From NCBI RefSeq assembly GCF_004745825.1, contig NZ_SRLA01000006.1, positions 186,001 to 250,000 of the forward strand: DNA of 64,000 bases. The letters run 5' to 3'. The DNA comes from Hymenobacter fodinae (GTDB lineage: Bacteria; Bacteroidota; Bacteroidia; Cytophagales; Hymenobacteraceae). The notes under the pieces were generated by a model. The model ran no database searches. It saw only the letters and a program-made list of their open reading frames with translations, and had not been told where the DNA came from. Both the position numbers and the translations under genes were made by a program. Below are positions 2,247 to 60,214 of this stretch, in pieces (position 1 is the first letter of the stretch; each line of letters starts with the position of its first letter).

Positions 2247-4739
2247 TTAACCAGCTCGGCGCTTTTCATCTTCCGCACCTCCCAGCCGCTTGCGAGTGGG
2301 ACCTACCTTATCGTTGCCGAAGCGGTACCCAAATGAGAGGGTTACCACGCGGGAGTCTTGGCGTTGGTAGAAACGCTCCACGTAGTTGGCGTAGGCAGAG
2401 GTAGCGCGCACGGGGCTGGTAAAGAAAATATCTGTCATGTTCAGCTTCAGCGTACCCTTCCGGTCCCAAAGCGCCTTCTGCACGCCCGCCGTAACTTGCC
2501 CCTGTGGGCGCACGTCGAGGAACCCGTACAGCTCCCGCGACTGATAAGTGCCACTCAAATCAGCCGACCAGCCCTTACCGAAGGTGAAGGAGCTGTTGCT
2601 CGTTAGGTTGAATGCGGCCCGCCCCCGGTTGAGGTTGGTGCCCGCCAAGTCGCCCACAAACCTGGAGTAATACACCACGGCGTTGTTGTAGATGCTCCAG
2701 CCCTTCATCGGCTCCAAGGGTACCGTCAGGTTCAGGGCGTAGTATTCCTGGGCCTGCAGGTTCACGCTGGTAGACACCACCTGTTGCCGGCCTTCAGAAA
2801 CGGGAGCCGGCTGCACCACCTGAATGATAGGCAGAGACGTCTTCGTATAGTTAAGGCCCGTGGTGTACTTCTGCTTGAAGGTATGGTTGAACTCCACATT
2901 GTAGCTCGTTTGGGGCCGCAAGTTGGGGTTGCCAGAGCCATAGGTAGTAGCATCAATGTACACCCGGAACGGGTTGAGCTGGTTGTAGCTAGGCCTGTCG
3001 ATGCGGCGGCTCAACGAAACGGCTATTTCGTGGTCCTTGCTCACTTGGCGCTTCAGGGCCGCACTCGGAAACAGTTGAAAGTAGTTGCGGTCGAACCCCT
3101 CATTGCCGACTGTTTGCCGCCCCGTGGCGTTGGTTTGCTCGCCGCGCAAGCCAGCCGTAAGCGTAAGGCCTGGCTGCGGCGTAAACGTAAGCGTGCCGTA
3201 CGCCGCATTAATATTCTCATCGTAGCGGAAACGGTTTGTCTTGCCTAGGTCTACCGAGTCTAGGCCACTGCGGCTAAGATTATTAATGAACAGCACATCA
3301 TTATCAGAATGCACCTGGCTGATTTTTGCGCCCGCCTCCAGGCGCAGTTGCTTGCTTAGCGTCTGTACGTAATCGGTCTTGGCCGATCTAATGACGAGGT
3401 TGCCTTCTTGGTTGCCCCGCAGGACAAACGTCGGGCGCCCGCCTTCGTACTGGGTCGTTAAGTTTTGGGTGCGTACCGTGTAGTAACGGGCAAGGTCGGC
3501 GTCGGCGGTCAACTCACGAGTGCCACCTGAGTCGGCGGGAAAAGTGTGCTTGAAGTTAAGGTTGATGGCTCCGTTGGGTGAGTGGGAGGTACGCACATTA
3601 CTGGAACGATACGTTTCCAGTAGGCCACCTTGGGCATTGAAAAACTGCGTAAGGTTGGTGCCATCCTGCGGTACTTGGTTGGTAAAGCCGTTCACCGCTA
3701 GGCCTAGCACGGTGCGGTCGGAGAGGGTGTAGTCGAGGCCGGCTTTGGCAGCATGGTTACGACCGTGTACCTGAATGCGGTTGTCCTGGGCGCTACTGCC
3801 CGTATAAGTGCGGCTGGTTTGATTATCACCTAAGTCGCGCACAGCAAAAAAGTCGCGGCTGATGGTGAGGAGCGGCTGGCTTTGCCGGTCGGAGTAGGTG
3901 TAGCTCCCGAATATATTCAGGCCCTTCCGGCGGTGATTCAGCGACAGAGTAGAAGTGAACTTACCCCCGTAGAAACTCCGTCCGTAGCTGGTGTTCACAC
4001 TACCGTTGGTGCCCAGGCGCTGATCCTTTTTTAGGTTGATGGCGATTATGCCGGCTCCACCCTGGGCGTCGTACTTTGCGGGTGGGTTGGTAATCAGCTC
4101 AATGTTTTTGAGCTGTTCAGCGGGTAGTGCCCGCAAGTAGTCGGCCAACTCTGTGCCCGTCATGGGCTGGCGCTTCCCATCAATGAGGACCAACAAGCCT
4201 TGTTTGCCGCGCAGGGCCAGGTTATCGTTGCCATCAACGGTTACGCCAGGGGCACGGCGTAGCACATCCAGGGTGGTATTGCCCGCCGAGAGCGTGCTGT
4301 TCTCTACGTTCACAATAGTACGGTCGGCCTCGCGCTCATACAGCGGCTTCTGGCCCACCACAGTTACCTCTTTCAGGTTAGTAGCCCCGTTGGCTTGTAG
4401 CGTAAGCACGAGAGGGGAGGAGCTGGCGGCAGGTAGCTCAAACGGCTTGCTCCAAGCACGCGTGAAACCAACTTGTGAAGCTGATATGAGGTAGCGCCCC
4501 GCTCCAGCCGCTTCAAACCGATAATTGCCCTTTTCGTCGCTGAATTCTGATTTGACTACCGTAGAGTCGCTGGCCCGGTGCAACACCACGGTAGCAAACT
4601 CAATGGGCAAGCCGGCGGTACTTTTCACGCTACCTCCTAGGCCAGTAGCAGTTTGTGCATGCACATAGCCACCACCAGTAATGCCAAGTAGAGTTAGTAA
4701 GCAGGGCTTAATTGGGAGCCCACATAGTGAAGTGTTCAT
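2247..4739 (-). CDS. Outer-membrane beta-barrel receptor, carboxypeptidase-like N-terminal domain (copy 1)
   Basis: About 830 residues from the start chosen at 4739, which gives a clean signal peptide ending YVHAQ; an upstream ATG at 4844 would lie inside the loop of a palindrome and is less likely. Domains in order: signal peptide, carboxypeptidase-regulatory-like beta-sandwich (about 30-120), plug-like domain with LVLIDGKRQPMTGTELADYLRALP and NPPAKYDAQGGAGIIAI (about 120-230), then a beta-barrel of the OMP_b-brl_3 type with repeated LSRRIDRPSYNQLNPF-type strands. A Lys/Arg-rich tail of about 20 residues (RKRLGGAEDEKRR) follows the last strand. Probably takes up a ligand or acts as a TonB-type receptor; substrate unknown. 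A tandem paralogue lies immediately upstream. Confidence 0.88.
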   Translation of the reverse strand: MNTSLCGLPIKPCLLTLLGITGGGYVHAQTATGLGGSVKSTAGLPIEFATVVLHRASDSTVVKSEFSDEKGNYRFEAAGAGRYLISASQVGFTRAWSKPFELPAASSSPLVLTLQANGATNLKEVTVVGQKPLYEREADRTIVNVENSTLSAGNTTLDVLRRAPGVTVDGNDNLALRGKQGLLVLIDGKRQPMTGTELADYLRALPAEQLKNIELITNPPAKYDAQGGAGIIAINLKKDQRLGTNGSVNTSYGRSFYGGKFTSTLSLNHRRKGLNIFGSYTYSDRQSQPLLTISRDFFAVRDLGDNQTSRTYTGSSAQDNRIQVHGRNHAAKAGLDYTLSDRTVLGLAVNGFTNQVPQDGTNLTQFFNAQGGLLETYRSSNVRTSHSPNGAINLNFKHTFPADSGGTRELTADADLARYYTVRTQNLTTQYEGGRPTFVLRGNQEGNLVIRSAKTDYVQTLSKQLRLEAGAKISQVHSDNDVLFINNLSRSGLDSVDLGKTNRFRYDENINAAYGTLTFTPQPGLTLTAGLRGEQTNATGRQTVGNEGFDRNYFQLFPSAALKRQVSKDHEIAVSLSRRIDRPSYNQLNPFRVYIDATTYGSGNPNLRPQTSYNVEFNHTFKQKYTTGLNYTKTSLPIIQVVQPAPVSEGRQQVVSTSVNLQAQEYYALNLTVPLEPMKGWSIYNNAVVYYSRFVGDLAGTNLNRGRAAFNLTSNSSFTFGKGWSADLSGTYQSRELYGFLDVRPQGQVTAGVQKALWDRKGTLKLNMTDIFFTSPVRATSAYANYVERFYQRQDSRVVTLSFGYRFGNDKVGPTRKRLGGAEDEKRRAG

Positions 4740-4820
4740 GACTTCAGAGCTGAAATGAATGAGGTGTAAACGATGCTCCACTGCCAGCTGGCCAAGCCGA
4801 TAATAGGAGAACGATGCAAG

Positions 4821-4859
4821 TACGAAGAGTTTCGTATTAAACATACGAAACTCTTCGTA
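4821..4859. promoter_or_regulatory. Perfect 17-bp inverted repeat upstream of receptor copy 1
   Basis: Arms TACGAAGAGTTTCGTAT (4821-4837) and ATACGAAACTCTTCGTA (4843-4859) separated by 5 bases. Each arm itself carries ACGAA-N4-TTCGT, so there are four half-sites in 39 bases. Position 80-120 bases upstream of the chosen start suits an operator for a dimeric or tetrameric regulator, or a leader hairpin. Function is inference. Confidence 0.5.
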
Positions 4860-5284: not shown

Positions 5285-7741
5285 TTATTGCACAGCCCCT
5301 GCCCGGCGCTTCTCATCCTCCACCCCAGTAGCACGCTTGCGGGAGGGAGCTACCTTATCGTTGCCGAACCGGTAGTTAAACGCAAGCGTAGCCACCCGCG
5401 AATCTTGGCGATTGCGGAAAACTTCCTGCAACGGCACATAGGTAGCAGTCGACCGCAAAGGGGCGGTATAGAAAATATCGGTTACGTTGAAGCGAAGGGA
5501 AGCGTGGCTGCCGAGGCCTTTTTGCACTCCGGCTGCTAACTGCCCAAAAGAGCGGACCCGCTCAAAGGCATACCGCTCGGGGGTGTGGTAATTACCATTC
5601 AGATCAAGGGTCCAGCCACTGCCTAGCGTCGCGGTAGCGTTGCCGCTTAAAATGGCAGCCGGTCGGGCTGGAGCGGGCTTTGAGCCGTTTGCTAGCTGCC
5701 CCTCAAAATAGATGTAGAATACCTCGGCATTCGCATACAGACTGAGCCATTTCGTGGGCTTGGTTGGGGCCGTAAACGTGAAGGCGTAGTAGTGCTGCGC
5801 CGCCAGATTAACGAAAGTAGCCACCACCAGCCCTTCCGCATCGAGTAATGTGGCTCCCACAATGGGGCGCGAAGTACGTGTGTAGCTTAGGCCCGTAACT
5901 AGCTTTTGCTTAAAGGTGTGGGTAAGCTCCGTCACTAGGCTTGTCTGGGGCCAGAGGTTTGGGTTGCCACTCCGATAAGAAACCGCATCAATGTACGAGC
6001 GGAAGGGGTTTAGTTGCGCGTTGTAAGTGGGGCGGTCGATGCGGCGGCTGAAGCTCAGGGCTAGCGTATGCTGAGGGGTAAGCACACGCTCTAGGCTAAC
6101 GTTGGGAAACAGCTGAAAATAATTGCGGCTGAAACGCTGATTGTCAATGGCCTGACGGCCTTCCACTACCGTTTGCTCTCCTCGTAGGCCTGCCGTGATA
6201 GTGAGGCCCGGCCGGGTGCGGGACAAGGTAACGTACCCGGCCCGGATATCTTCGTCGTACCGGAACTGGTTGGTAGTACGAGGGTCAATTGTCCGAACCC
6301 CGTCAACTTCCCGCGTAAACAGCACGTCATTGTCGGAATGAACGCGGCTGGCTTTTAACCCGGCTTCCAGGCGCATGCGGTGACGGAGTGGCCGGATATA
6401 GTCCGCCTTCCCCGACCAAATCGACAACTGCCCATCCTGGTCGCCAAGCAGCCGGTTGTCGCGCCCGGCGGGCAGCAGGTAATAGTTGAACAAATCGAGG
6501 GTGCGGTAAGTACCGTAATGCCCGAAGTCGAGGTCGGCTGACAGCTCCGGGGTACCCAGCGAATCTGCCGCAAACCGGTGCCGCACCGATACGTTGGCCG
6601 TCTGGTTGGGCGTGCGGAGGTTCCGGTAAATGTCGGAATAGAGAATGGCCGTGGGCTGAGACTGGGCATCGAAAAACAGACCCGTATTCTCACCAGTAGA
6701 AGGCACGCGGCTGGCTAGGCCACTCACCGCTACGCCAAGCTGCGTGTTCTTGGTGAGCGTATAATCGAGGCCCGCCCGCCAAGTATGCGACTGTAAGTGG
6801 CCACGCGAATCATTGGCCTGAATGCTCCGGCTGCGAACTTGGTTATCGTCCTGGAAGAAAGTTCGGGAGAAGTCAAGCTTCTGAAAGCTTTGCCGGTCGG
6901 CGTAAGAGTAGGTGGCAAACAGATTGATGTTCTTCTGCCGATGATTCAGGGAAAGGCCCGAGGTGAACTTGCCGTATTTTCCGCGCCCGTAGCTGGTGTT
7001 CACACTGCCGTTGGTGCCCAGGCGCTGATCCTTTTTTAGGTTGATGGCGATAATACCCGCCCCACCTTGCGCATCATACTTGGCAGGTGGGTTGGTAATC
7101 AGCTCAATACTTCGGACCTGCTCAGCGGGTAGTGCGCGTAAATAATCAGCTAGCTCGGTGCCAATGAGCGGCACGCGCTTGCCATCAATGAGCACCAGTA
7201 GCCCCTGCTTTCCCCGCAGCGCCAAATTATCATTCCCCCCAACCGTTACGCCAGGGGCCCGGCTGAGTACATCAAGCGTGGTATTGCCGGCACTGATGGG
7301 CGTGCCCTCCACGTTTACCACGGTTCGGTCTGAAAGGCGCTCAAACTGTTCACGAGCAGCCGTAACCGTAACCCCTTGCAGGGTAGTGGAGGCGGTGGCG
7401 GCCAGTTCCAAGGCTGGCAAGGTAAGGCCCTCCGCCGGAAGCTCAAACGCCCCGGACCAAGTACGCTTATACCCCACCAACGCCCCCGATACCAGGTAGC
7501 GGCCGGGAGGAGCCAGTAGCACATATGCCCCCTGAGCACCGCTGAATTCCGTCTTTACAGCTACTGAATCGGTAGCCCTATGCAGGGTAAGGGATACGTA
7601 TTCGAGAGAGCCGCCGGTAGTGGCACGGACTGTACCGCGCACCGGAGCCGACTGGCCCTGAGCAAACAAAGAAGCGGGCAGCAGCGCCAAACTAGCTGCT
7701 ACCCAGAAATGGCCCAGAGAACTGGGCAAAATAAACGACAT
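5285..7741 (-). CDS. Outer-membrane beta-barrel receptor, carboxypeptidase-like N-terminal domain (copy 2)
   Basis: About 818 residues from the ATG at 7741, which starts directly at a signal peptide (LPASLFAQ cleavage region). The architecture is the same as the downstream copy: beta-sandwich, plug-like region (LVLIDGKRVPLIGTELADY, NPPAKYDAQGGAGIIAI), large barrel with LSFSRRIDRPTYNAQLNPF, and the same basic tail (RKRATGVEDEKRRAG). The two proteins differ through most of the barrel but are nearly identical in the plug, where about 65 bases match almost perfectly at DNA level, suggesting duplication plus gene conversion. Ligand unknown; the divergent barrels suggest different ligands. Confidence 0.88.
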   Translation of the reverse strand: MSFILPSSLGHFWVAASLALLPASLFAQGQSAPVRGTVRATTGGSLEYVSLTLHRATDSVAVKTEFSGAQGAYVLLAPPGRYLVSGALVGYKRTWSGAFELPAEGLTLPALELAATASTTLQGVTVTAAREQFERLSDRTVVNVEGTPISAGNTTLDVLSRAPGVTVGGNDNLALRGKQGLLVLIDGKRVPLIGTELADYLRALPAEQVRSIELITNPPAKYDAQGGAGIIAINLKKDQRLGTNGSVNTSYGRGKYGKFTSGLSLNHRQKNINLFATYSYADRQSFQKLDFSRTFFQDDNQVRSRSIQANDSRGHLQSHTWRAGLDYTLTKNTQLGVAVSGLASRVPSTGENTGLFFDAQSQPTAILYSDIYRNLRTPNQTANVSVRHRFAADSLGTPELSADLDFGHYGTYRTLDLFNYYLLPAGRDNRLLGDQDGQLSIWSGKADYIRPLRHRMRLEAGLKASRVHSDNDVLFTREVDGVRTIDPRTTNQFRYDEDIRAGYVTLSRTRPGLTITAGLRGEQTVVEGRQAIDNQRFSRNYFQLFPNVSLERVLTPQHTLALSFSRRIDRPTYNAQLNPFRSYIDAVSYRSGNPNLWPQTSLVTELTHTFKQKLVTGLSYTRTSRPIVGATLLDAEGLVVATFVNLAAQHYYAFTFTAPTKPTKWLSLYANAEVFYIYFEGQLANGSKPAPARPAAILSGNATATLGSGWTLDLNGNYHTPERYAFERVRSFGQLAAGVQKGLGSHASLRFNVTDIFYTAPLRSTATYVPLQEVFRNRQDSRVATLAFNYRFGNDKVAPSRKRATGVEDEKRRAGAVQ

Positions 7742-7850
7742 AGACACGATGAGTTGGTTGTGAAGCAACATCGTGCAATAGGCTTGGAAGGGAGGAATGG
7801 CACCTAGAAGAAGTCGCTACTCCGCTACCAGAATGCAGGTCAGTTGACCG

Positions 7851-34154: not shown

Positions 34155-34850
34155 CTACAGCCCAAACCGCGCTAGCAGGGCCTCCTTGTGCTGCTTGCCG
34201 ATAGGCAGTTTCTCGCGCAGGTCGTAGAGTTCGGCCTCGTTGCCGCTGATGGCTTTAATGGCGTCAACCTTCACGATGTACGACTTCTGGATGCGCGTGA
34301 ACCGGTCGGCGGGGAGCTGGTCTTCGATGCGGTTCATGCGCAGATACGTGACGATAACGCGGTTCTTGAGGATAATCTTGATGTAGTCCTTCATGCCCTC
34401 GATGTAATAAATTTCATCAAAGAGCACCCGCTGCAGGGAGTTGCCTTCCTTCACAAACAGGAATTCCGGGGCTGGTGGCGCTACTATGGTCGGGCGGGTG
34501 TTGAGAATGGCCAGAGCCTTGTTCACCGCCTTCAGAAAGCGCGGAAACGACACGGGCTTCACGATGTAGTCCAGCGCATCCAGCTCAAAGCCTTCTAAGG
34601 CATAATTGGGGTAGGCCGTCACGAAAATCACGTAGGGCGGATTGTGCAGGGAGCGGATAAACTCAATGCCGTTAACCTGGGGCATGTTGATGTCGGAAAA
34701 CACTAGGTCTACTTTCTGCTGCATTACTTCCAGCGCGTCAAACACATGCTCGCAGCTAGCCACCAAGTTCAAAGATGGAATTTTAGCAATGTACCCTTCA
34801 AGCAGCTCACGGGCGAACGGCTCATCGTCGATAATCAGGCAGTTAATCAT
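34155..34850 (-). CDS. LytTR-family response regulator
   Basis: 231 residues. Receiver domain: acidic Asp8-Asp9, phospho-acceptor Asp53 in LVFSDINMP, Lys in YIVKPVSF. LytTR DNA-binding domain from about residue 125: VKEGNSLQRVLFDEIYYIEG and the YLRMNRIEDQLPADRFTRIQKSYIV segment. It binds direct repeats upstream of target genes in related systems. It is the downstream partner of the LytS-like kinase, from which it is separated by a 230-base gap holding a REP-like hairpin. Confidence 0.93.
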   Translation of the reverse strand: MINCLIIDDEPFARELLEGYIAKIPSLNLVASCEHVFDALEVMQQKVDLVFSDINMPQVNGIEFIRSLHNPPYVIFVTAYPNYALEGFELDALDYIVKPVSFPRFLKAVNKALAILNTRPTIVAPPAPEFLFVKEGNSLQRVLFDEIYYIEGMKDYIKIILKNRVIVTYLRMNRIEDQLPADRFTRIQKSYIVKVDAIKAISGNEAELYDLREKLPIGKQHKEALLARFGL

Positions 34851-34939
34851 ATAGGTAGCAGTAAGAAGCAGAAAGTGAAGCGGCGAAGTGGCCTAGAGTG
34901 TAGTAGTATGTTGTTAGAGCGGCCAATGAACCATTATAC

Positions 34940-35043
34940 CGTCACGCTGAGCGGAGTCGAAGCATCTCTCCCTCTGGCTAATCTAAGTGGCCTAGGAGTC
35001 TGCAACGAAGCAGTAGAGATGCTTCGGCAAGCTCAGCATGACG
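34940..35043. repeat. REP-like hairpin between kinase and LytTR regulator
   Basis: Left arm 34940-34969 and right arm 35015-35043, sharing CGTCAnGCTGAGC and CGAAGCATCTCT, imperfectly complementary over about 29 bases. It also holds an AGTGGCCTAG repeat copy in its loop. It belongs to the same family as the elements at 33878 and 45879. Confidence 0.75.
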
Positions 35044-35079
35044 TTCAGGGTTGCACCTCGGTAGTCGCATCAAACTGCA

Positions 35080-36267
35080 TCATTCTAGGCCAGTTGGGGA
35101 AGTTGCTAGCACAGCCGAAACGGCGGGTCTGTGTTTGCGTGTTGCTGATGCCGCACCCGTTGCCGGTGGGTGCAGCCGTAAGTTGAGCGTAACGCGGTAG
35201 GTATCGGCGGTGGAGTCAATGTGCAATTGGTAATCTTGAGCGGGATAGTGCAGGGCCAAGCGCTTGCGCACGTTGGCAATGCCCACGCCGCCAAACTCGC
35301 GCTTAGGAGCGGACGGCGCTTGGCTGTTGCTGACTTCAAATTGCAGCCAGCCATCGTGCTCCGCTAATGTTACGGTTATCCAGGAAGCTTCCAAGCTGCT
35401 ATCAACGCCGTGCTTAAAGGCATTTTCCACGAAGGGAAAGAATAGCAGGGGGGTGAGACGGTAATGCGTGGGAAGGTCAGGAGCTTTATGGTAGGTAATG
35501 CTGACTTTTTGCCCGTAGCGCAGGCGCTCCAGCTCCAAGTACGACTCCAAAAAGCTCACCTCCTGGCCTAGCGGCACCAGCGCGGCATCCGACTCATACA
35601 CGGTGTAATGCATGAGGTGGGCGAGGTGCTCAACCATGTCGGGGGCGCGCTCATCCTGCTTTACCACCATGGTGTAGATGTTATTGAGCGTGTTGAATAG
35701 GAAGTGCGGGTTGACCTGGGCTTTCAGGAAGTTGACCTCCAGGTTGAGGTTTTCGCGTTGCAGGCGCAGGCTTTGGTTGCCGCTACTGAGCAGAAACCGG
35801 ATGAAGCGCACCAGAATAGGCGGAATAACCGTCACGGAGAAATCATTCAGGCCCATGCTCACGCTGCGCCATGAGAAAATGCCTTCCCAGAGGGTACCAT
35901 CCAGAAAACGGTGCATGTACCCGTAAGCATTCTCAGAAACCAGACCGAAACGGTCGAAAACCGCGAAGCACACGTAGCAGAGGGTAGCCCAGAAGTAGTA
36001 AATGGCCACGATGCCCAGGGCCGTGAGCAGCCAGCGCCGCCGTAGCAGAAACCGCGGCAGCAGCACCAGGGAAAAGAAGTAGTAGCTGCAGATGGTAGCT
36101 ATAGTGTCCTTCAGCACAAAGCCCCACGTAACGATGGGTTTTTCCTGCCAGTTGCTGAACACGAAGTACTCGAAGCCGACGAACAGCGTCCACCAAAACA
36201 GGTGCTGAAGTACCCTTCCTAGTGGCCTAGCGAGAAAGTGCCGCGCATTAGAGCCCAGAGTGGCCAT
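35080..36267 (-). CDS. LytS-family sensor histidine kinase
   Basis: 395 residues. N-terminal membrane domain with 4 helices, no recognised ligand-binding domain. His_kinase domain: NFLKAQVNPHFLFNTLNN with phospho-acceptor His188, then a GHKL ATPase with PFVENAFKHG (Asn282) and GGVGIANVRKRLALHYP. It forms the working kinase with the LytTR regulator downstream. It follows a small membrane protein and a degenerate paralogue, all on one strand with gaps of 2 bases or overlaps, so the operon order is degenerate kinase, small membrane protein, kinase, regulator. Confidence 0.92.
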   Translation of the reverse strand: MATLGSNARHFLARPLGRVLQHLFWWTLFVGFEYFVFSNWQEKPIVTWGFVLKDTIATICSYYFFSLVLLPRFLLRRRWLLTALGIVAIYYFWATLCYVCFAVFDRFGLVSENAYGYMHRFLDGTLWEGIFSWRSVSMGLNDFSVTVIPPILVRFIRFLLSSGNQSLRLQRENLNLEVNFLKAQVNPHFLFNTLNNIYTMVVKQDERAPDMVEHLAHLMHYTVYESDAALVPLGQEVSFLESYLELERLRYGQKVSITYHKAPDLPTHYRLTPLLFFPFVENAFKHGVDSSLEASWITVTLAEHDGWLQFEVSNSQAPSAPKREFGGVGIANVRKRLALHYPAQDYQLHIDSTADTYRVTLNLRLHPPATGAASATRKHRPAVSAVLATSPTGLE

Positions 36268-36269
36268 AG

Positions 36270-36590
36270 TTACTTAGTTGAATTGCGAGAGCCTGGGCCA
36301 GCGGGCTTCCGGAAAGCTAATATCCCGATGCCAATGGCAGGCAGGATGATACACAGAAGGATAAAAGCGGAGTGAGAAATACCGGTAGAATAGCCAAACA
36401 GCACCACCAGCCCAAGCAGGATGATGCCCATGCGGCGCTTGTTGTGGCGGTTACGGTACACCAGCCAGGGCACTAGGCCTAGCGCCACCACGCTGGCTAC
36501 CCGCAGAAAAGTATCGAGCAGGCCTAGCGGTGCCTCCCCAGTAAGCAGGAGCGCAGATAGGAGATGGGGAAGCAGAGCGGAAAAAAGCAT
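36270..36590 (-). CDS. Small membrane protein in the LytS operon
   Basis: 106 residues, four hydrophobic segments (ALLLTGEAPLGLLDTFLRVA, VVALGLVPWLVY, MGIILLGLVVLFGYSTGI, FILLCIILPAIGIGILAF) and a short basic C-terminus. It is not recognised as a named family. It overlaps the end of the degenerate kinase gene by one base and ends 2 bases before the next gene, so co-expression is almost certain. It may assist or anchor the kinase. Confidence 0.75.
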   Translation of the reverse strand: MLFSALLPHLLSALLLTGEAPLGLLDTFLRVASVVALGLVPWLVYRNRHNKRRMGIILLGLVVLFGYSTGISHSAFILLCIILPAIGIGILAFRKPAGPGSRNSTK

Positions 36591-37693
36591 CAGAGACGGA
36601 TGGTAAGCTGAACCCGCACCAACTGGTCGGTTTCGGTGAGGTGCACGGCGTGGTGGTCGGGGTAGTGCAGCGCTAGGCGGCGCAGGGCGGCTCCGATGGC
36701 GGCATCGGTACGGTAGGTGAGGGGCAGGGGCTCCTCAGTGGTCCGCTCTAGTGTCAGCGAAACCTCCTCGGCGCCCACCCGCACCTCACTATGGATGTTG
36801 GCCGCAGCCTGGGGGGCGTCGTCGAGGCCAGCAAAGAGGCGCTCCAGAAACGGGTGCAGCAGCAGGGGCGCTAGCTGCTGCTCGGCTACGGCCCCTACGA
36901 CCTTGTGCGTGATGCTGAGGGTTTCGGGGCGGCGCAGCCGTTCTAGGGCCAGGTAGTCTTCCAGAAACTCCAGCTCCCGGCTCAGGGGTACGCGCTCGGA
37001 GTCGGTTTCGTAGAGAGTGTAGCGCATCAGGTCGGCGAGGTGCAACACCACGTCGCCGGCGCGCTCGTCGCGGGTGCGGGTAAGGGTGTGGAGGCTGCCG
37101 AGGGTGTTGAACAGAAACTGCGGGTTGATCTGCGACTTCAGGTAGCCCAGCTCCAGGTGCAGGTGGTCGCGCTCCAGGGCCAGGCGGCGGCGGTCAATAA
37201 CCAGCGCGTAGGCAAGGAAGCTAATGAGCACCGGAAACAGCACGATGGCCAGCAGCCCGAAAAACGCATTTAGCTGGGCCGCGGGGTTGAGCAGCTTGCC
37301 CCAGAACCCGGTCACGTAGAACTGCTGCAACACGCGGTGCATGACGGGCGAGAGGGGCAGGTAGGTCTGGGCCAAGCGGGAGCCCACGTACATCCACAGC
37401 TCAAACGCATACAGTACCGCCACCCCCGCCGCCAGCGCCTGCCAGGTCCGCCCCCGCAACAGCCACAGCGGAATAATGAGGTACACCAGGGCGTTGAAAA
37501 GCAGCACCGAAAAGCCCAATTGCAGGGCTACCAGCGGCCACACGGGCCCCTCGAAGGAGAAGTTTGGGCGGTTGTTCCAGGCGAAGTAAAAGACCCCCAG
37601 CACTACCCACAACAGGAGCTGCAGCAGCACCGTGGTAGTGCGAGAGCTGAGGCTTTTCCAGCTAAAAGTGGTTAATGAGGCAGATTCAGGCAT
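36590..37693 (-). CDS. LytS-family protein with degenerate kinase motifs
   Basis: 367 residues, four N-terminal membrane helices and a LytS-like cytoplasmic domain that aligns by eye with the intact kinase encoded in the same operon. The phospho-acceptor position is changed: LKSQINPQFLFNTLGSL has Gln192 where the neighbour has His. The ATP-binding Asn box PFVENAFKHG is PFLERLFAGL (Arg285 for Asn), and the GVG-ANVRKRL box is AIGAALRRLAL. All three changes disable catalysis in this family. The reading frame is intact over the full length, so it looks like a maintained pseudokinase that may modulate the partner kinase. Confidence 0.85.
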   Translation of the reverse strand: MPESASLTTFSWKSLSSRTTTVLLQLLLWVVLGVFYFAWNNRPNFSFEGPVWPLVALQLGFSVLLFNALVYLIIPLWLLRGRTWQALAAGVAVLYAFELWMYVGSRLAQTYLPLSPVMHRVLQQFYVTGFWGKLLNPAAQLNAFFGLLAIVLFPVLISFLAYALVIDRRRLALERDHLHLELGYLKSQINPQFLFNTLGSLHTLTRTRDERAGDVVLHLADLMRYTLYETDSERVPLSRELEFLEDYLALERLRRPETLSITHKVVGAVAEQQLAPLLLHPFLERLFAGLDDAPQAAANIHSEVRVGAEEVSLTLERTTEEPLPLTYRTDAAIGAALRRLALHYPDHHAVHLTETDQLVRVQLTIRL

Positions 37694-57611: not shown

Positions 57612-59174
57612 TTACTTGCGTAGAAAGGCACTCAGATCTGATACTGAGGCAATGCCCAGGCGCTCGGCATGCTGACGGCGCATCAGCAGGGCATAGGTGT
57701 TGTTGAAGCCCAGCGGTGCCTGCCACTCCAGCCCGTAGCGCCGCTCAAACTCCCGGTGCACGTAGGCCAGTACGGCCGCGGGCTGGCTTCCCAATGAATC
57801 CAGCACGGCTGTGGCTGGCTGCAACACCACCAAGAGGCCCGTGCCCGTGTACTCGGGGTAGAGGTCGATGGAGCCCGTGCGCAATGCCTCAAAGCAAATG
57901 CTGGTGCCCCCCAACCCCGTCTTAGACTCCACGGCTAACCCCGTGTACCCCCGAATCAGGGCCTCGTACATTTCAGCCAAGATATACTGCTCGGCAAAGA
58001 TTTTTGAGCCCAGCCGGATGGTGCCGCCTTGTACGGGTAGTGGGTCGTGCCACAGGCCGCGCTGGCGCAGGAAAGCGTGAGCCACGGTCCGCGGTGTTTC
58101 GTGTAAGTAGTCAACGCGGTAGTTCAACTCCGTCATAACAGAGTCTGAAATCTGCCCGTCTAACTTGGCTAGCACGGGGGCCAGCTCGGGGTGCTGGGCC
58201 AGCGTCTGGGTTCGTACCACGGGCGCCGCTTGGTAGGGCGGAAATGCCTGCCGGTCGTCGTGCAGCACCCGCAGGTCATAGGCCCGAATGCGGCCGTCGG
58301 TGGAGTACCCATCAATAACGTCTACGTCGCCGTGGTGGGCTGCCTCATACACCAGCGCGGGGGCCAGCACCACAGAGGCTGGGTGTAGGCCATACTTCTG
58401 CTGCAGCCCGGGTAGTCCATCGGCACGGCCCACAAACTCGGGGCTGAACCCGGCCAACAGGCGGCTGGTGGCGCGGGGCAACAGGTAGAGTCCCGCTAGC
58501 AAGGGCAGCACCACCAGAGCCACCTGGCCTACGCGCACCAAGCGCCGAACCGGCAGGCGCTGCAGCAAGGCCAAAGCTGCATCGAAAGCTAAGGCCAGTG
58601 CGGCCGCCGGAATGGCTCCGGCCAGAATCATAGCGGGATTGTTCAGGGCAATGCCGCCAAAAATGAATTCGCCTAGGCCACCCGCCGCAATGTACGCCGC
58701 TAGCGTAGCCACGCCCACGTTGATTACTGCTGCCGTCCGGATACCGGCAAACAGCACCGGCAGCGCCAGCGGCAGCTCTACCCGGCGCAGCACCTGGCCA
58801 TCGGTCAGGCCTAGACCGCGGGCGGCATCTACCACGGCTGCATCCACGCCCTGAATGCCCGTTACGGTGTTGCGCACAATGGGCAGCAGGGCATACAGAA
58901 ACAAGGCAAAGATGGCGGGCCCCGGGCCGATGCCCAAAGCCGGAATCAGGAAGCCCAGCAAGGCAATACTCGGGATGGTTTGCAGCACGCTGGCTACACC
59001 CAGCACCCAAGGAGCCAACCGTGGGCGGCGCGTCACGAGCAGGCCTAGCGGCACCCCAAGCAGCACACCTAGCAGGAGGGAGGCAGCCGTTAGACCAATG
59101 TGTTGCAGGGTCTGCTGGCCTAGCTTATCGGCTTGAGCGTGCCAAAAGGAGAGGAGTTCGGTGAAGGTGTTCAT
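57612..59174 (-). CDS. Osmoprotectant-type ABC permease fused to a circularly permuted binding domain
   Basis: 520 residues. Residues 1-235: OpuBB/ProW permease with about 6 helices and the EAA-type loop DAARGLGLTDGQVLRRVELP. Residues about 244-520: an OpuBC/OpuCC/ProX-like substrate-binding domain with its halves exchanged. The normally C-terminal lobe comes first (DGLPGLQQKYG, DVDVIDGYSTDGRI, FPPYQAAPVVR, NYRVDY, VAHAFLRQRG), then the normally N-terminal lobe (TIRLGSKIFAEQYILAEMY, LGGTSICFEALRTGSIDLYPEYTGT, GFNNTYALLMRRQHA, SDLSAFLRK-stop). Each element occurs once and the frame is intact. Binds a quaternary amine, ergothioneine or similar; not decidable here. Overlaps by 4 bases with the ATPase gene. 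Confidence 0.88.
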   Translation of the reverse strand: MNTFTELLSFWHAQADKLGQQTLQHIGLTAASLLLGVLLGVPLGLLVTRRPRLAPWVLGVASVLQTIPSIALLGFLIPALGIGPGPAIFALFLYALLPIVRNTVTGIQGVDAAVVDAARGLGLTDGQVLRRVELPLALPVLFAGIRTAAVINVGVATLAAYIAAGGLGEFIFGGIALNNPAMILAGAIPAAALALAFDAALALLQRLPVRRLVRVGQVALVVLPLLAGLYLLPRATSRLLAGFSPEFVGRADGLPGLQQKYGLHPASVVLAPALVYEAAHHGDVDVIDGYSTDGRIRAYDLRVLHDDRQAFPPYQAAPVVRTQTLAQHPELAPVLAKLDGQISDSVMTELNYRVDYLHETPRTVAHAFLRQRGLWHDPLPVQGGTIRLGSKIFAEQYILAEMYEALIRGYTGLAVESKTGLGGTSICFEALRTGSIDLYPEYTGTGLLVVLQPATAVLDSLGSQPAAVLAYVHREFERRYGLEWQAPLGFNNTYALLMRRQHAERLGIASVSDLSAFLRK

Positions 59175-60214
59175 GCGGTCTGAACGTCTTGGAGCGCCCG
59201 GCCAAACGCCGTCATTAGCTGCGGCAGCGTCAGGGAAATGTATGCCGTTGCGGAAGGGCTATTGCCTGCCTCTACCCACACTACTGCCTCCTCTTCAGCA
59301 CTAGTCTGCAGTCCAGAAGGTGAGCTAAGCGCCTCTATAGCCTCCTGAATGGTTACACTAAGTGGCAATACCTTATCGGCTGATTTATAAGTATGTAAAG
59401 AATTATTATGAACCTCATTAGGGATGTATGTCATTACGTCAGCTAGTCGTAGCGTACGGAGTTGTAAGGAGAATTTCTCGGCATCGAAGAAGCGGCGCAC
59501 GAACTCATTCGCGGGCCGGAACAGTAGCTCCTTGGGCGTGCCCAGTTGCTGTACTTGCCCGGCATTCAGAAGCATGATGCGGTCGGCTAGCTCAAAGGCT
59601 TCCGTCACGTCGTGGGTAACCAGCACTACGGTTTTGCGGCGTAACTCCTCCAGCTCCCGGAACTCCCGCCGAATACTGGCGCGGGTAATGGGGTCGAGGG
59701 CGCCGAAGGGTTCATCGAGCAGGATGATGGGCGGGTCGGCGGCTAGGGCTCGGGCCAACCCCACACGCTGCTGTTGCCCGCCGGAAAGCTGGTGAGGGTA
59801 CAGCCCCGCGAAGCGCTCGGGAGGCAGGTGCAGCCGCCGCAAAAGCTCCTCGGTCCGGGCCGCCACCTGAGGTTCTTCCTGGCCTAGCAGGCGAGGCACC
59901 ACCCCCACATTTTCGGCCACCGTGTAGTGCGGCAACAGGCCTACCTGCTGAATGACGTAGCCGATACCACGGCGCAGCGCGGCGGCAGACTGAGTGCGAA
60001 CATCCTGCCCCTGCACGGCCACGCTCCCTTCGTCGGGCTCTACCAGGCGGTTGAGCATGCGAAGCAGCGTGGTTTTGCCGCAGCCGCTGGGGCCCAGCAA
60101 GACCAAAGTTTCGCCCGCCGGTAGGGCAAAGGAAACGTTCTGCACTACCGCGTGGGGGCCGTAGCGCTTGCTGAGCTGGGTAGCCTGAATGGCAAGTGGA
60201 GAGGAAGAAGTCAC
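59171..60214 (-). CDS. Osmoprotectant-type ABC transporter ATPase
   Basis: 347 residues. Walker A GPSGCGKTT, Q-loop VIQQVGLLPHYTVAENV, signature LSGGQQQRVGLARAL, Walker B PIILLDEPFGALDPITR, switch His in VLVTHDVTEA. The last 110 residues, after position about 240, lack a clear CBS or TOBE motif and may be a regulatory tail. ProV/OpuA-type ATPases energise uptake of compatible solutes. It ends 4 bases inside the permease gene (ATGA), so the two are translationally coupled. Confidence 0.93.
   Translation of the reverse strand: MTSSSPLAIQATQLSKRYGPHAVVQNVSFALPAGETLVLLGPSGCGKTTLLRMLNRLVEPDEGSVAVQGQDVRTQSAAALRRGIGYVIQQVGLLPHYTVAENVGVVPRLLGQEEPQVAARTEELLRRLHLPPERFAGLYPHQLSGGQQQRVGLARALAADPPIILLDEPFGALDPITRASIRREFRELEELRRKTVVLVTHDVTEAFELADRIMLLNAGQVQQLGTPKELLFRPANEFVRRFFDAEKFSLQLRTLRLADVMTYIPNEVHNNSLHTYKSADKVLPLSVTIQEAIEALSSPSGLQTSAEEEAVVWVEAGNSPSATAYISLTLPQLMTAFGRALQDVQTA

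Follow-up and report, generated by a model that had tools for sequence, protein, structure and literature searches.

Histidine kinases are usually regarded as homodimers, and to our knowledge few pseudokinases or hetero-pairs have been described among them. The case treated here is a LytS-type pseudokinase (PSK1) encoded next to an intact kinase of the same type (KIN1) and a LytTR response regulator in a 64,000-nucleotide stretch of the Hymenobacter fodinae genome, which we call the window. Among the described proteins, DivL and RetS belong to other families, and RocA/CovS differs from PSK1/KIN1 in kinase family as well as in regulator type.

The nearest worked example for PSK1 and KIN1 is FasB/FasC/FasA of group A Streptococcus, which resembles the PSK1 operon in having two kinase-like proteins, one of them a proposed pseudokinase (FasC), together with one regulator (PMC12675982); we liken the two by their way of working and not by sequence family. 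A two-hybrid hetero- but no homo-interaction of FasB and FasC is reported there, with FasC supplying the histidine (H246) and FasB the active kinase domain, while the kinase domain of FasC is dispensable (PMC12675982). Whereas the FasBC chains divide their tasks in this way, KIN1 has all motifs and PSK1 none. RocA is a kinase-like membrane pseudokinase that interacts with CovS and acts through it; it retains a histidine (H246, dispensable), where PSK1 has a glutamine (PMC7028121). In ChrS, a laboratory-evolved frameshift produced a pseudokinase that modulates the working kinase HrrS, which is comparable to what we propose for PSK1, namely a catalytically inactive kinase-like protein acting on a working kinase. 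In that study, native ChrS formed a two-hybrid heterodimer with HrrS, but the mutant gave no signal, and DivL and RetS/GacS are named alongside it (PMC9491836). Besides, the LytS-type kinase BtsS, paired with a LytTR-type regulator, resembles KIN1 and its regulator; unlike PSK1, BtsS works, with ATP it preferred Mn2+, and its H382Q variant is not phosphorylatable (PMC10653868). Searches of the open-access literature returned nothing for pseudokinase together with LytTR, for pseudokinase together with histidine kinase and LytS, or for the phrase histidine pseudokinase; most subscription literature lies outside this search, so that novelty is unproven.

PSK1 and its operon

The genes follow each other on the minus strand from 37693 to 34155:

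36590..37693, minus strand: PSK1, LytS-type pseudokinase, 367 aa (open reading frame, PF06580 match and motif reading)
37118..37120, minus strand: codon CAG of Gln192, phospho-acceptor position of PSK1 (Gln in 27/28 orthologues)
36923..37153, minus strand: PF06580 match with dimerisation region and H box, PSK1 residues 181-257 (Pfam, conservation)
36824..36853, minus strand: degenerate Asn box PFLERLFAGL, PSK1 residues 281-290 (Asn in 0/28 orthologues)
36270..36590, minus strand: small hydrophobic protein, 106 aa (Pfam: nothing above cut-off)
35080..36267, minus strand: KIN1, intact LytS-type kinase, 395 aa (Pfam; motifs His188, PFVENAFKHG and GGVGIANVRKR)
34155..34850, minus strand: LytTR response regulator, 231 aa (Response_reg 71.6 bits, LytTR 64.7 bits)

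The uninterrupted frame of PSK1 starts with ATG, and its stop codon overlaps the ATG of the next gene by one base. By sequence PSK1 belongs to the LytS-type family, scoring 81.1 bits against Pfam His_kinase (PF06580) over residues 181-257 at a curated cut-off of 25.2, and KIN1 scores 91.4 bits; NCBIfam gave no family assignment for either protein. Of the features that characterise an active LytS-type histidine kinase, PSK1 has lost the acceptor histidine, the Asn box and the Gly box. The preliminary description had named the first two losses and a changed Gly box, and the changes are real: Gln192 occupies the acceptor position, the Asn box reads ERLF where KIN1 has ENAF (PFLERLFAGL against PFVENAFKHG), and the Gly box is missing. 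It was equally right about the open frame, the overlap with the next gene and the intact paralogue, KIN1 reading LKAQVNPHFLF, PFVENAFKHG and GGVGIANVRKR. Its operon of pseudokinase, small membrane protein, kinase and LytTR regulator stands for the pseudokinase, the kinase and the regulator, which occur together in 28/28 genomes; only 3/28 operons have a small membrane gene separating PSK1 from KIN1, and this gene is therefore no conserved part of the unit. A gap of 229 bases (34851-35079) divides KIN1 from the LytTR gene, and the other genes of the operon are tightly spaced.

The structure models are weak overall, with a mean pLDDT of 65 for PSK1 and 61 for a second single-chain model. Confidence is low in the dimerisation region of PSK1 (pLDDT about 40-53), and residues 231-367, a mixture of helices and strands, reach block means of 68-91. 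The GanS kinase domain is the top PDB match of PSK1 both for the modelled fold (6swk, 6swj) and for the sequence (6swj, E 1.6e-10).

Elsewhere in the window, reading the open reading frames by eye, we noted an ABC permease seemingly fused to a substrate-binding domain (57612-59174) and overlapping an ATPase gene (59171-60214), a gene pair that resembles glycine-betaine-type importers, and two tandem paralogous outer-membrane receptor-like proteins (2247-4844 and 5285-7771, minus strand).

Conservation within the genus

At E up to 1e-40, 28 of 120 genomes of the genus have a PSK1 orthologue, and an independent search of the same 120 genomes for KIN1 (E up to 1e-60) returned the identical set of 28. 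A PSK1 frame followed by KIN1 and LytTR is seen in 28/28, the contig of G051 stopping within LytTR, and no case of PSK1 without KIN1 occurs among the 120. The gene content is FasBCA-like throughout, with two kinase-like genes and one regulator in a single operon in all 28 genomes; the sharing of tasks is not, since the histidine and the ATPase motifs are all in KIN1 and PSK1 has neither. The closest named PSK1 orthologue is that of Hymenobacter wooponensis (85% identity). No orthologue outside the genus was found among 204 genomes of the family, where the top non-genus match has 34% identity and a histidine. By eye, a DnaG-like gene lies upstream of the operon in 14/27 loci and a fumarylacetoacetase-like gene downstream in 9/27 (L059-L084, L025); with such shared flanking genes, the operon site seems to have been largely inherited in place.

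The acceptor residue is Gln in 27/28 PSK1 orthologues and His in one (G023). At the N-box Asn position we found Arg in 27 and Gln in one, the position matching KIN1 Asn314 is Arg in 28/28, and the glycines corresponding to Gly327 and Gly329 of KIN1 are substituted in 28/28, while Arg336 is invariant (28/28). The residue table behind these and the later counts excludes three fragments without an H box and has one Runella genome entered twice (L058, L259). Hence the motif losses in PSK1 are not only real but also, as seen across the orthologues, general beyond chance.

In G023 the histidine codon is CAC, and two relatives have CAG. Because the G023 protein is in the trees the sister of a Gln protein and nested in the Gln clade, its histidine is best read as a later change, and it therefore gives no sign of a recent histidine loss in the PSK1 of the window. 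Next to this sole His-bearing orthologue (L069, L244) is a KIN1 with its Gly-box end shifted out of frame, which might reflect a swap of roles or an error in the sequence. Three of the 28 assemblies have a KIN1 that is interrupted or frameshifted (G014, G023 and G094; split by frameshifts in G014 and G094), for which sequencing error may be responsible. PSK1 stays open in G023 and G094 despite the damaged KIN1; its tail is frameshifted in G014, and its frame is fully open in the remaining 27/28.

Selection on PSK1 and KIN1

Close pairs, 11 in number, give dN/dS values of 0.10-0.32 (PSK1) and 0.08-0.22 (KIN1), with the rows L085 and L075 (PSK1) and L075, L083, L069 and L086 (KIN1) left out. Summed over 267 of 300 pairs from 25 genomes, with 33 pairs beyond the chosen dS range omitted, the ratios are 0.37 and 0.32, respectively, and these NG86-based ratios are inflated for distant pairs. 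By region, PSK1 and KIN1 have 0.40 and 0.38 in the membrane region, 0.21 and 0.16 in the dimerisation region, and 0.42 and 0.29 in the ATPase region. The mean pairwise identities are 0.824 (PSK1, 27 sequences) and 0.831 (KIN1, 25 sequences) for the dimerisation region and 0.593 and 0.565 for the membrane part, against 0.535 and 0.674 for the ATPase part, where 17 of 111 columns are invariant in PSK1 and 40 of 113 in KIN1. In its sensor and dimer parts PSK1 is therefore constrained about as strongly as KIN1, and its catalytic part is relaxed without being free of constraint. The preliminary description suggested that PSK1 forms heterodimers with KIN1 or titrates it; the dimerisation region, equally conserved in both proteins, favours a dimer but does not prove one.

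With a kinase-like sequence, lost catalytic residues and selection to keep it, PSK1 agrees with the histidine pseudokinases, a functional class of accessory proteins such as RocA and DivL whose binding and modulation of a working kinase it would share. The preliminary description had regarded it as kept by selection alongside a working kinase and a LytTR regulator, a view that orthologues with both His and Asn, pointing to a recent loss, or a dN/dS near 1 would have spoken against. The view is borne out by linkage in 28/28 genomes and by low dN/dS, in close pairs far below 1; Gln is found in 27/28 orthologues, Asn in 0/28 and a replaced Gly pair in 28/28, and the one histidine, in G023, lies inside the Gln clade. 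Its argument against decay is likewise upheld, by dN/dS and by the frames of the orthologues.

Other triads of kinase, pseudokinase and LytTR regulator

The same genome encodes 17 PF06580 members, 15 of which have both His and Asn; the histidine is missing only in PSK1 and in a second protein, PSK2, which has Ala at the acceptor position and is encoded 3' of an intact kinase (KIN2) and 5' of a LytTR gene. The PSK2 operon (L165:4280-7340, G000:C13) lies outside the window, and its order of kinase and pseudokinase is opposite to that of the PSK1 operon. PSK2-like proteins occur in 16 genomes of the genus and in G198, from another genus of the same family, where a similar triad is present. At the acceptor position nine of the 17 have Ala, three Pro and two Thr, one each has Leu, Ser or Gln, and none has His. 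The N-box Asn is retained in 15 of 16 readable PSK2-like proteins, and some losses affect the Gly residues and the later Asn. In all, the PSK2 search matched 30/120 genomes of the genus, the matches beyond the PSK2-like proteins being weaker kinase relatives.

Further comparable triads were found. G070 has a kinase, a pseudokinase (Gln, without Asn) and LytTR, and the Runella triad of a kinase, a Gln pseudokinase and LytTR is present in five genomes of a single genus among 121 of the Runella family; the other two matches of that search (G439, G429) have the histidine. In G497, LytTR is preceded by a run of three LytS-type genes (L240:2360-5688), and only the middle one lacks the histidine (Glu). 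The triad of G775, from another class, consists of a kinase, LytTR and a Gln pseudokinase. A non-His H-box pattern matched 61 of 390 genomes of the order, compared with about 43 for a reversed control pattern, and the loci checked, part of 69 listed places, were mostly no kinase; in G461 it led to an additional kinase locus with the histidine present, a match that the kinase does not explain. A Gln-box pattern matched 10 of 395 genomes of the phylum, with three kinase loci (the one described here, G005 and G775), and the sensitivity of such patterns is low, as a Gln pattern matched 18 of 204 genomes though 27 genomes of the genus have the Gln.

For a survey of tandem pairs, we used the 138 PF06580 members of 13 genomes of the order, found in 11 of them, and read 17/17 from the own genome and 115/121 from the others, leaving out six of the 138 as long open frames. 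Outside the own genome, the histidine is present in 112/115 and the N-box Asn in 115/115; the three His-less members are a tandem one in G213 (Asp), a tandem one in G207 (Glu), both followed by LytTR, and an unpaired long protein in G211 with a poor alignment around the H box. Taking as tandem those members on the same strand with PF06580 matches less than 2.5 kb apart, a definition set after the positions had been seen, the histidine is absent in 4/16 tandem and 1/116 single members including the own genome (one-sided Fisher p 0.0007). Since the finding originated in the own genome, the fair figure is the one without it, 2/12 against 1/103 (p 0.028), the members being non-independent. Both members are intact in 4 of 8 tandem pairs, so that a dead member is no requirement for pairing.

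Origins of the histidine loss

In a tree of 95 rows the acceptor state changes six times, which suggests five losses of the histidine and a regain in G023. On the best tree the losses fall on PSK1 with the Runella proteins, on PSK2 with PSK3 and the G213 protein, and on the proteins of G497, G775 and G207. Support is 96/94 for the clade of PSK2, PSK3 and G213 and 96/76 for KIN2 with the G213 kinase; the grouping of the G775 pseudokinase with its own neighbour kinase has 100/99, and that of the three proteins of G497 has at least 100/99. PSK1 and the Runella proteins, all on long branches, are joined with 94/90 in this tree and with 86/87 in a second tree from which 12 kinds of close rows had been thinned out; their grouping may be a long-branch join. 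Long branches of uncertain placement also occur elsewhere among the pseudokinases. PSK1 and KIN1 are sisters in no tree, and a recent tandem duplication of KIN1 as the source of PSK1 was rejected.

A single loss for all pseudokinases including the G497 protein is rejected (p-AU 4e-9). The tests, run without the G207 and G213 proteins, are compatible with one origin of PSK1 and PSK2 (p 0.15), of PSK1, PSK2 and PSK3 (p 0.29), of PSK1 and PSK3 (p 0.34), of PSK1, Runella, PSK2 and PSK3 (p 0.13) and of PSK1, Runella and G775 (p 0.08). As a single origin is rejected only with G497, two origins are firm and five is the count on the best tree. None of 19 proteins read from the PSK2/PSK3/G213 lineage has a histidine, the acceptor position being Ala, Pro, Leu, Ser, Gln, Thr or Asp; this lineage is probably older than the split between the families of Hymenobacter and Runella, or was transferred between them as a unit.

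Proposed function of PSK1

Since PSK1 retains the membrane and dimerisation parts, the simplest reading is that it forms the silent second chain of a dimer with KIN1. We propose, with a probability of about 0.6, that PSK1, though catalytically dead, is kept by selection as a subunit which probably forms heterodimers with KIN1 and tunes its action on the LytTR regulator. The analysis establishes the lost acceptor, Asn and Gly motifs, the strict linkage with KIN1 and LytTR, a purifying selection that is strongest in the dimerisation region and the recurrence of such triads; contact between the two chains, the signal sensed and the sign of the control are inferred. Pairing with KIN1 would run via helices in the membrane and in the conserved dimerisation region, the sole acceptor histidine and the sole ATP site of the dimer would come from KIN1, and PSK1 would govern when KIN1 phosphorylates or dephosphorylates the regulator. 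Since the His-to-Gln variant of BtsS is reported as unphosphorylatable, PSK1 should not take phosphate by the known route (PMC10653868). If LytS-type phosphorylation runs across the dimer, the PSK1-KIN1 dimer would be silent and PSK1 a brake; if it runs within one chain, the dimer could be active and PSK1 might serve as a sensor or activator. The silent chain of the PSK2 operons, which in most cases retains its Asn, might still give phosphate across the dimer.

Alternatively, PSK1 might form a homodimer that binds the LytTR regulator, serving as its sink or as a phosphatase-like scaffold, without pairing with KIN1. LytS-like kinases are expected to dock their regulator at the dimerisation region, so the conservation of this region fits a sink too, as does the presence of LytTR in the operon every time; a pure sink, however, needs the regulator alone, whereas PSK1 is always accompanied by KIN1 across the 120 genomes, and we regard this alternative as unlikely. 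Still harder to uphold is a role as sensor or scaffold for a different pathway, with the operon shared only for expression: the membrane part of PSK1 is indeed conserved as much as that of KIN1, but the strict co-occurrence of the two genes and the recurrence of triads of kinase, His-less kinase and LytTR speak against it. That PSK1 still has enzymatic activity, through an unusual acceptor or as a phosphatase, is very improbable, as the loss of the Asn and Gly boxes in 28/28 argues against ATP binding, even though its C-terminal part is predicted to fold as a domain of mixed helices and strands, matches the GanS kinase domain best among PDB entries and retains Arg336 in 28/28. Decay, assembly error or recent loss, for which one could cite the relaxed ATPase region (dN/dS 0.42 versus 0.29 in KIN1) and the frameshifted tail in G014, is rejected on the frame, open in 27/28 genomes, on dN/dS far below 1 and on identical changes in 28 species.

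Implications

Beyond the partner subunit proposed for KIN1, we tentatively suggest, as a view with slightly less than even odds, that kinase, His-less partner and LytTR regulator form a recurrent and partly old architecture of the Bacteroidota, an asymmetric heterodimer set by genome organisation, with about five origins and with a PSK2/PSK3/G213 lineage that either is older than the separation of the two families, those of Hymenobacter and Runella, or was passed between them as a unit. Annotation that relies on PF06580 by itself labels such His-less proteins kinases. The repeated loss of the phosphate site in tandem partners, with the ATP site lost as well in some of them, provides a natural series that bears on the question whether LytS-type phosphorylation takes place within one chain or across the dimer, and on the sensing role of the silent chain.
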